NCBI GenBank assembly: GCA_017470525.1
Contig: JAFUYM010000028.1
Coordinates: 1-50,367, forward strand
Source of the DNA: Bacteroidaceae bacterium
GTDB taxonomy: Bacteria > Bacteroidota > Bacteroidia > Bacteroidales > Bacteroidaceae
DNA: 50,367 bases
Direction of reading: 5' to 3'
Every line of letters starts with the position of its first letter. Positions within the stretch are counted from its first letter, which is position 1. Positions 26,292-50,367 of the stretch are shown here, piece after piece. The notes under the pieces are model-generated. The model had not been told where the DNA came from. It did no database searches and was given only the letters and a program-made list of their open reading frames with translations. The position numbers were made by a program, and so were the translations under genes.

Positions 26292-26322
26292 TTTGTATAT
26301 TGAGTTTTTTTGTGTAATTTTG
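26292..26322 (+). promoter_or_regulatory. Promoter of the tetR-fabG-rluA operon
   Basis: TTTG (26292-26295), 19 bases, TAATTTTG (26315-26322), 25 bases before the ATG at 26347. Full consensus match. Confidence 0.7.
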
Positions 26323-36643: not shown

Positions 36644-36673
36644 TTGCGGATAGGGAAAAAATGTGTAAATTTG
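36644..36673 (+). promoter_or_regulatory. Promoter of the GH35 gene
   Basis: TTTG (36644-36647), 18 bases, TAAATTTG (36666-36673), 32 bases before the ATG. Spacer is one base short of the usual. Confidence 0.5.
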
Positions 36674-49600: not shown

Positions 49601-49608
49601 TAACTTTG
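49601..49608 (+). promoter_or_regulatory. -7 box TAACTTTG before the rhuM fragment
   Basis: TAACTTTG 21 bases before the ATG at 49629; no -33 TTG at 19-21 bases upstream. Confidence 0.45.
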
Positions 49609-49628: not shown

Positions 49629-49949
49629 ATGGTAAAACGACACGAGATAAGAAATAGTACGGCAGAGTTCCTGATTTTTCAAGTGGAAACTCAAGCAGAT
49701 GGAGTGGAAGTGATATATGCAGATGAAACTATCTGGTGCACTCAGAAGGCAATGGCAACACTCTTTAATGTAGGGGTTCCAGCCATCAGTAAGCATCTAG
49801 CTCATGCATTTGCGACAGGTGAACTTACAGAAAGCGCAACTATTTCCAAAATGGAAACAGTTCGTCAAGAGGGCAACAGAGAAGTGAAACGTATGGTCGA
49901 AATGTACAGCCTTGATGCTATTATTGCTGTTGGTTATCGTGTGTTGTGA
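49629..49949 (+). pseudogene. RhuM family protein, 5' fragment cut off by the CRISPR array
   Basis: 106 residues, against about 330 for full RhuM proteins. The N-terminal conserved block is intact: YADETIWCTQKAMATLFNVG, then ISKHLAHAFATGEL and GNREVKRMVEMYSLDAIIAVGYRV. Family members continue from GYRV into a conserved stretch ending in FRIWAT, but here the next codons are TTG TGA, the first bases of CRISPR repeat 1. Everything up to GYRV looks normal. RhuM-family proteins are common in mobile or defence islands and their biochemical role is unclear. Either the array was joined to the gene by recombination, or the contig is chimeric at the repeat. Confidence 0.82.
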
Positions 49950-50367
49950 ATTGCTGACAAATTAGTATCTTTGCATTATCATAAACAACGTTCACGCCTT
50001 GCTGTGACGAGGACGAGCAGTTGTGAATTGCTGACAAATTAGTATCTTTGCATTATCATAAACAACTCCAACCAACCGTCATCGCCTTCTTTCAGTTGTG
50101 AATTGCTGACAAATTAGTATCTTTGCATTATCATAAACAACGCAAAACCCGCAATGCCCGACAGGGGTAGAGTTGTGAATTGCTGACAAATTAGTATCTT
50201 TGCATTATCATAAACAACAATATAAAATTCCACAAAAGCTACAACAATGTTGTGAATTGCTGACAAATTAGTATCTTTGCATTATCATAAACAACCTACA
50301 TGGCGGGGCTGTCGGTGAAGGAGCGGTTGTGAATTGCTGACAAATTAGTATCTTTGCATTATCATAA
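49943..50367 (+). CRISPR. CRISPR array, 47-base repeat, five complete and one partial repeat
   Basis: Repeats start GTTGTGAATTGCTGAC and end CATTATCATAAACAAC: 49943-49989, 50020-50066, 50095-50141, 50172-50218, 50249-50295, and 50326-50367 (42 of 47 bases, cut by the window end). All complete copies are identical. Spacers are 30, 28, 30, 30 and 30 bases and unrelated to each other. Length and sequence resemble the type II-C (Cas9) repeats of Bacteroides and Prevotella, which start GTTGTGAATT and contain TTAGTATCTTTG. No cas gene or tracrRNA is within the window. Each repeat holds TTG (positions 2-4), 19 bases, TATCTTTG (24-31), a consensus Bacteroidota promoter directed into the next spacer. 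Confidence 0.96.

Follow-up and report, generated by a model that had tools for sequence, protein, structure and literature searches.

A 47-nt type II-C CRISPR repeat of a Bacteroidaceae bacterium that probably doubles as a housekeeping-type promoter

The last 425 bases of a 50,367-nt contig from a Bacteroidaceae bacterium (this whole stretch being referred to below as the window) belong to a type II-C CRISPR array, of which they form the leader-distal end; its 47-nt repeat, GTTGTGAATTGCTGACAAATTAGTATCTTTGCATTATCATAAACAAC, probably doubles as a Bacteroidota housekeeping promoter of the sigma-ABfr type, reading in the + direction and starting near position 36 of every repeat. The predicted promoter combines a TTG at about -33 with a TAnnTTTG box at about -7. 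Each repeat would start its own transcript, made of 12 nt of repeat at the 5' end, the spacer and the next repeat. Nucleotides 1-24 of that next repeat would pair with the tracrRNA, itself presumably started at about its first pairing base from its own TAnnTTTG, and RNase III would presumably cut the duplex to give the crRNA 3' end, as passages on Campylobacter jejuni suggest (PMC3656092). The evidence comes from sequence and comparison, and comprises the motif, its geometry, its conservation, the limits of pairing, and the patterns found in array flanks and first repeats; by these means, a promoter sequence of the host type, in the crRNA direction, can be recognized in every repeat. Repeat promoters are known in type II-C systems, and what appears to be new is the TAnnTTTG form of Bacteroidota, with its different predicted start site.

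Six copies of the repeat can be found, five complete and a sixth cut by the contig end, separated by spacers of 30, 28, 30, 30, and 30 nt (Table 1). The original prediction placed TTG at repeat positions 2-4 and TATCTTTG at positions 24-31, with a gap of 19 nt, and all six copies agree with it. Among the three of five spacers searched, one viral match was found, that of spacer 1, the flank of which fits the NNNNNTAAA motif reported in passages on the II-C system of Flavobacterium columnare (PMC8092290). This suggests that the + strand is the crRNA strand, although it is a single case and the Cas9 is a different one. Spacer 2 together with the first repeat bases resembles a site of the own genome (L006 1501-1532, contig C61:20194-20225), at 88% over about 33 nt.

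Table 1. Features of the array and matches to TTG-N19-TAnnTTTG in the window (promoter elements and starts are predictions)
Feature	Position	Strand	Remarks
TTG-N19-TAnnTTTG match	4817-4788	-	upstream of tRNA-Met
TTG-N19-TAnnTTTG match	19509-19480	-	upstream of tRNA-Lys
TTG-N19-TAnnTTTG match	26293-26322	+	first codons of longest ORF of TetR-type gene, before its HTH domain
TTG-N19-TAnnTTTG match	36511-36482	-	at mechanically called start of one of two divergent ORFs
TTG-N19-TAnnTTTG match	36644-36673	+	at mechanically called start of the other divergent ORF
Truncated rhuM-like gene	49629-49949	+	PF13310, 36 of 252 profile positions; runs into repeat 1
Repeat 1 (leader-distal, intact)	49943-49989	+	predicted -33 TTG 49944-49946; -7 box TATCTTTG 49966-49973; inferred start ~49978
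Spacer 1	49990-50019	+	30/30 match to viral contig; 3' flank GGAGCTAAAGG
Repeat 2	50020-50066	+	-7 box 50043-50050; inferred start ~50055
Spacer 2 (28 nt)	50067-50094	+	
Repeat 3	50095-50141	+	-7 box 50118-50125; inferred start ~50130
Spacer 3	50142-50171	+	
Repeat 4	50172-50218	+	-7 box 50195-50202; inferred start ~50207
Spacer 4	50219-50248	+	
Repeat 5	50249-50295	+	-7 box 50272-50279; inferred start ~50284
Spacer 5	50296-50325	+	
Repeat 6 (cut by contig end)	50326-50367	+	-7 box 50349-50356

Within the window, TTG-N19-TAnnTTTG has 11 exact matches, against a mean of 0.45 and a largest value of 2 in 100 dinucleotide shuffles; six of the 11 are one repeat sequence copied and are therefore counted as one event. 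The geometry had been said to be common to the repeat and the promoters of tRNA-Met, tRNA-Lys, and a TetR-type gene, and the same exact motif is indeed present at all of them, the TetR site lying inside the longest ORF. The repeat has the sigma-ABfr layout of Bacteroidota, i.e., TAnnTTTG at -7 with TTG 18-21 nt upstream, at a spacing equal to that of the tracrRNA promoters described below. As passages on Flavobacterium psychrophilum place the box at -12 to -5 (PMC9723704), a box at 24-31 would give a start near repeat position 36. The start originally proposed at positions 37-39 is moved to near 36; the predicted start lies 12 nt before the spacer, and the transcript would begin with 12 nt of repeat. 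Regarding the upstream element, the -33 motif was not found in Flavobacterium johnsoniae, according to passages of PMC7366714.

Conservation was assessed among Cas9 loci of the phylum. A search for Cas9 exceeded the cut-off in 65/395 genomes of the phylum, 144/393 of the order, and 88/395 of the class, the three sets overlapping. From the matching genomes, 140 loci were hand-picked, mainly those with room on the contig, and 114 of them, plus the own locus, gave an array, defined as at least 4 units of 33-50 nt. Ninety-seven arrays are from Bacteroidia (78 long and 19 short, own included) and 18 from other classes, a long repeat being one of 44 nt or more; the 78 long-repeat loci of Bacteroidia hold 77 distinct repeats, that of the window among them, grouped in 38 or 41 clusters depending on clustering order. 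TTG-N18-22-TAnnTTTG can be found in 50 of the 77 distinct repeats, the other 27 being without the exact motif, and at least five of the six box letters are present in 66/77; on the reverse strand the motif occurs in 0/77. At the level of cluster representatives it is found in 21/38, against 0.25 expected from dinucleotide shuffling and 0.43 when only the 3' part is shuffled. When the letters were not preset, TAnnTTTG was the commonest XXnnXXXX pattern (23.5 of 41 clusters). The distance between TTG and box varies from 18 to 22 nt while the box stays whole, and since the box also lies at variable distances from the two repeat ends, it becomes blurred when all 77 repeats are aligned globally with MAFFT; conservation anchored on the box is circular for the box letters and was left out of the evidence on them. 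Even the free "nn" positions show conservation, as TC (0.71 and 0.81). Between internal copies of the same repeat, changed letters amount to 3/6228 in the box, 9/23843 in the pairing part, and 24/16462 in the tail. In a Cas9 tree of 154 rows, all 51 exact boxes fall within one clade of 84 rows. Two loci, L104 and L112, have nearly identical 47-nt repeats together with Cas9 proteins that are only 28% identical, so that Cas9 and repeat seem to evolve separately.

Type II-C repeats of other hosts appear to carry another promoter form. Among 80 named Cas9 loci, 40 arrays were obtained, of which 12 records of Bacteroidota, Ignavibacteria, Balneolaceae, or Rhodothermales were set aside, leaving 28, one of them (L186) labelled only "bacterium". 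Of these 28 non-Bacteroidota repeats, 27 have a sigma-70-like TANNNT no more than 2 nt from the 3' end, vs. 1 of the 78 long Bacteroidia repeats, and TAnnTTTG is found in 0/28. A TANNNT end can also be found in the Bacteroidia loci L045, L064, and L079 and in 4 of the 12 records set aside. TTG as a repeat start is present in 76/78 long Bacteroidia repeats vs. 17/28 non-Bacteroidota repeats; being a common repeat start outside Bacteroidota as well, the TTG half constitutes weak evidence for a promoter. Apart from this half, the proposal of a repeat-borne promoter in the sigma dialect of Bacteroidota is well supported by comparison, through the enrichment of motif and spacing, the other phyla and, as detailed below, the position of the box outside the pairing, the flanks and the first repeats.

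The same repeat family can be found in a sister class of the same phylum, for which 17 arrays (from 19 stretches) were supplemented by hand with L178, L179, L181, L183, L184, and L194, L281 being read without its 5' end. The full motif is present in 1 of the 22 distinct repeats vs. 50/77 in Bacteroidia, and CTTTG in 13/22 and 56/77, respectively. This persistence of CTTTG without the full motif is the chief argument against box letters kept solely for a promoter, and, the "nn" letters being conserved too, some of the box may serve a different function or reflect plain ancestry. GTTCTT occurs in 11/22 sister-class repeats, where Bacteroidia often have GTATCTT. An AnnTTT that follows a second TTG by 18-21 nt, some 8 nt downstream of the usual box site, is found in 15/22 sister-class vs. 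1/77 Bacteroidia repeats, with 0.6 expected when the 3' part is shuffled; the count was made after the pattern had been spotted, and in related rows, which makes it a lead only. The exact motif is found in 0/17 distinct 36-nt Bacteroidia repeats, three of which have five of the six letters. L137, L139, and L152 have 36-nt repeats inside the long-repeat Cas9 clade, with five of six box letters and a much shorter 3' tail. Other 36-nt Bacteroidia repeats (GTTGTGGTTTGATTAAAG...CGATATT and relatives, e.g., L119) are without TAnnTTTG and mostly without a sigma-70-like end.

It could be supposed that TAnnTTTG is nothing but the far part of the anti-repeat pairing with the tracrRNA. Pairing does end where the box begins, so that one or two letters overlap, a loose alignment extends the pairing further in many loci, and a duplex of -9.5 kcal/mol is possible between box plus tail alone and 160 nt of the tracrRNA gene strand. 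However, the pairing between tracrRNA and repeat in the own genome covers repeat positions 1-24, with one bulge and at -29.1 kcal/mol, and stops there; moreover, the tracrRNA promoter lies at the edge of the anti-repeat, so that the complement of the box would be absent from the tracrRNA. A box due to mere pairing was rejected on these two grounds, and we regard it as very improbable. The original prediction had named a box explained entirely by tracrRNA pairing as its refutation, and had called for an alignment of many Bacteroidota II-C repeats; the outcome of both speaks for a promoter.

The tracrRNA genes themselves argue for the same promoter form in the same hosts. A tracrRNA gene was accepted in 75/97 Bacteroidia loci and in 65/81 long-family loci, using a stricter local alignment for the anti-repeats since the loose version over-extended the pairing. 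A TAnnTTTG up to 45 nt upstream of the anti-repeat or at its edge is present in 45 of the 65 located genes (4.0 expected), the other 20 being without an exact box, and in 41 of these 45, 1-5 nt separate the G from the anti-repeat. On the repeat side, no more than 2 nt separate the start of the box from the last paired base in 35/42 loci. In the 45 tracrRNA promoters, 26 TTG occurrences lie at gaps of 18-21 nt, vs. 0-4 for any other gap between 8 and 28, and the -33 spacing is thereby checked independently. In the own genome, TATATTTG ends four bases before the anti-repeat and, with the box at -12 to -5, the tracrRNA would start at its first pairing base.

Two further explanations accept the box and assign the crRNAs to other transcripts. 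One promoter outside could transcribe the array, the box being kept for another reason, e.g., repeat recognition by Cas1-Cas2 or shared ancestry. The CTTTG that persists in the sister class, mostly without TA, and the conserved "nn" letters are in keeping with this, as is a promoter-like TAACTTTG at 49601-49608, in front of the truncated rhuM-like gene, which could read into the array of the window. Yet no clear excess of inward-reading promoters was found in the 200 nt on either side of 64 arrays, while this motif does pick out 45/65 tracrRNA promoters: inward TAnnTTTG occurs on the distal side of 10 arrays (6.1 expected, hence slightly more) and on the leader side of 1 (6.2 expected), outward boxes numbering 16 (5.8 expected) and 4 (8.4 expected), respectively. 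As the repeat motif also fits the sigma consensus, TTG spacing included, and the box stays whole while its distance from TTG varies, an outside promoter as sole source seems quite unlikely. The repeat promoters might alternatively work but be weak, most crRNA being cut by RNase III out of read-through transcripts, as it is in type II-A. The full 24-nt tracrRNA duplex is retained, and with a start at position 36, 12 nt of repeat remain for 5' trimming, both in favor of this possibility; the flanks, without clear signal of an outside promoter, and the leader-distal repeats, which mostly keep their box when cut, speak against it, and we hold it to be fairly unlikely.

These leader-distal repeats, the oldest of their arrays, were compared in 76 long Bacteroidia arrays (own array and L107 excluded), less 10 at a contig edge and L074, which has a run of N, leaving 65. 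The 5' part of the first repeat is replaced in 35 of them and the repeat is fully intact in 19, as it is in the window. The loss extends beyond position 24 in 4/35, against 15.7 expected if uniform over positions 4-41 (binomial p ~3e-5), and beyond position 32 in 0/35, losses deeper than about 41 not being detectable. Of the 23 cut first repeats in arrays that have a consensus box, 16 retain a perfect one, and in L050 and L052 the altered stretch ends precisely at the first base of the box. This pattern fits a repeat that needs its promoter and not its pairing part. Nevertheless, changed letters in the cut repeats amount to 10/256 in the tail and 9/138 in the box, so that the tail has changed even less than the box and loss from outside explains part of the pattern. 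TTG at the right distance upstream of the box is not clearly enriched in the cut first repeats (4/23 vs. 1.9 expected). In 13 of 14 Bacteroidia arrays with 36-nt repeats and away from a contig edge (L137, L139, and L152 left out), the first repeat is intact, unlike in long-repeat arrays.

With the repeat-borne promoter as the preferred reading, a wider scheme can be put forward tentatively, and we consider it possible though rather less than probable: the repeats of one Cas9 family may have been retuned to the sigma factor of the host, repeat length following the promoter. Bacteroidia would have TAnnTTTG around positions 24-31 of 45-49-nt repeats, the sister class would have lost the TA and gained a shifted AnnTTT, and other phyla would have the TANNNT end. 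A new spacer would then always arrive with a host-matched promoter, and the oldest repeat would decay to little more than a promoter.

The window is contig C25 of a genome that is 83.5% complete, the cas operon of which is on contig C3, all on the - strand (cas9 5731-1605, cas1 1605-670, cas2 666-322). This cas9, cas1, cas2 order is that of type II-C, and a tracrRNA with an anti-repeat (L013 5793-5815, contig C3) pairing with repeat 1-24 is also present; we infer that C3 and the contig of the window belong to one locus. If C25 joins C3 in this way, the repeats point to cas2, as expected for type II-C. Two overlapping frames together make up the own cas9 (L013 1605-5731, contig C3), and the locus may therefore be inactive, the split being either a real frameshift or an assembly error. 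An apparent second copy of the cas9 region can be found on contig C56 (L014).

Repeat-borne promoters are reportedly present in the type II-C arrays of Neisseria meningitidis. The repeat of the window has TAnnTTTG at 24-31 of 47 nt and a predicted start 12 nt before the spacer, unlike that of C. jejuni, where one promoter per repeat is described, the repeat has the extended -10 box GGTAAAAT at its end, transcripts begin 5 nt inside the spacer, and the 3' end is made by tracrRNA and RNase III (PMC3656092, in the passages concerned). The independence from RNase III that the original prediction envisaged is conjectural; the array of the window keeps a 24-nt tracrRNA duplex, and C. jejuni relies on the enzyme for its 3' ends. 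In the same phylum, passages on the II-C systems of F. columnare and F. psychrophilum propose a repeat-borne promoter and describe array transcripts, among them eight array reads towards the leader in F. columnare; only TTG is named there for the repeat, TAnnTTTG being named only for cas9, and the F. columnare repeat is of 36 nt by a figure legend, against 47 nt here (PMC8092290, PMC10309648). The record L224, labelled F. psychrophilum, has a 36-nt repeat without TAnnTTTG. CRISPR1 of Riemerella anatipestifer, compared by description, resembles the array of the window, with 47-bp repeats, 30-bp spacers, a cas9-cas1-cas2 order, and spacer entry on the cas2 side; its authors, in the passages cited, saw no potential promoters in the repeats and favored a leader promoter, the leader having been scanned with a general-purpose predictor (PMC5006608, PMC6008519).

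The leader itself had been thought needless. This may hold for transcription, but the Riemerella array with 47-bp repeats takes new spacers at the cas2/leader end (PMC6008519, in part), and we propose that new spacers enter at this far end together with a repeat, hence with a promoter. In Bacteroides fragilis, no leader could be assigned to the II-C system, according to passages of PMC5704556. A mutated "extra repeat" has been described for II-C arrays, the oldest repeat being changed mostly in its first 15 nt, with a suggestion of retained promoter function (PMC12080349); the word Bacteroid is absent from its text, and the loss stopping short of the TAnnTTTG box is described here. Among the matches listed for the open-licence PMC literature, preprints apart and in the passages they gave, no paper places TAnnTTTG in a repeat and none maps crRNA 5' ends for an array with 47-nt repeats.

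If the repeat-borne promoter is real, each spacer in many of the long-repeat Cas9 arrays of Bacteroidia would be expressed on its own, so that array position should matter little for immunity, and guide designs using these repeats would start transcription inside every repeat. Selection would then act on a CRISPR repeat twice over, both as promoter DNA and as guide RNA, and a simple reason would be suggested for the unusual length of 46-48 nt.

With regard to the neighborhood of the array, the truncated rhuM-like gene ends where repeat 1 begins, as if fused to the array by deletion, insertion, or misassembly. RhuM and RhuM-Fic genes can be found as a toxin-like module within Cas9 operons: in L151 (7430-8826) both are directly between cas9 and cas1, and in L126 (10335-12283) a HIRAN-domain gene and a RhuM-Fic gene follow cas9. 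A tblastn search with the rhuM fragment of the window also gave matches in L149, L161, and L221, and weak ones in L104 and L259; L221 shares its Cas9 with L126.
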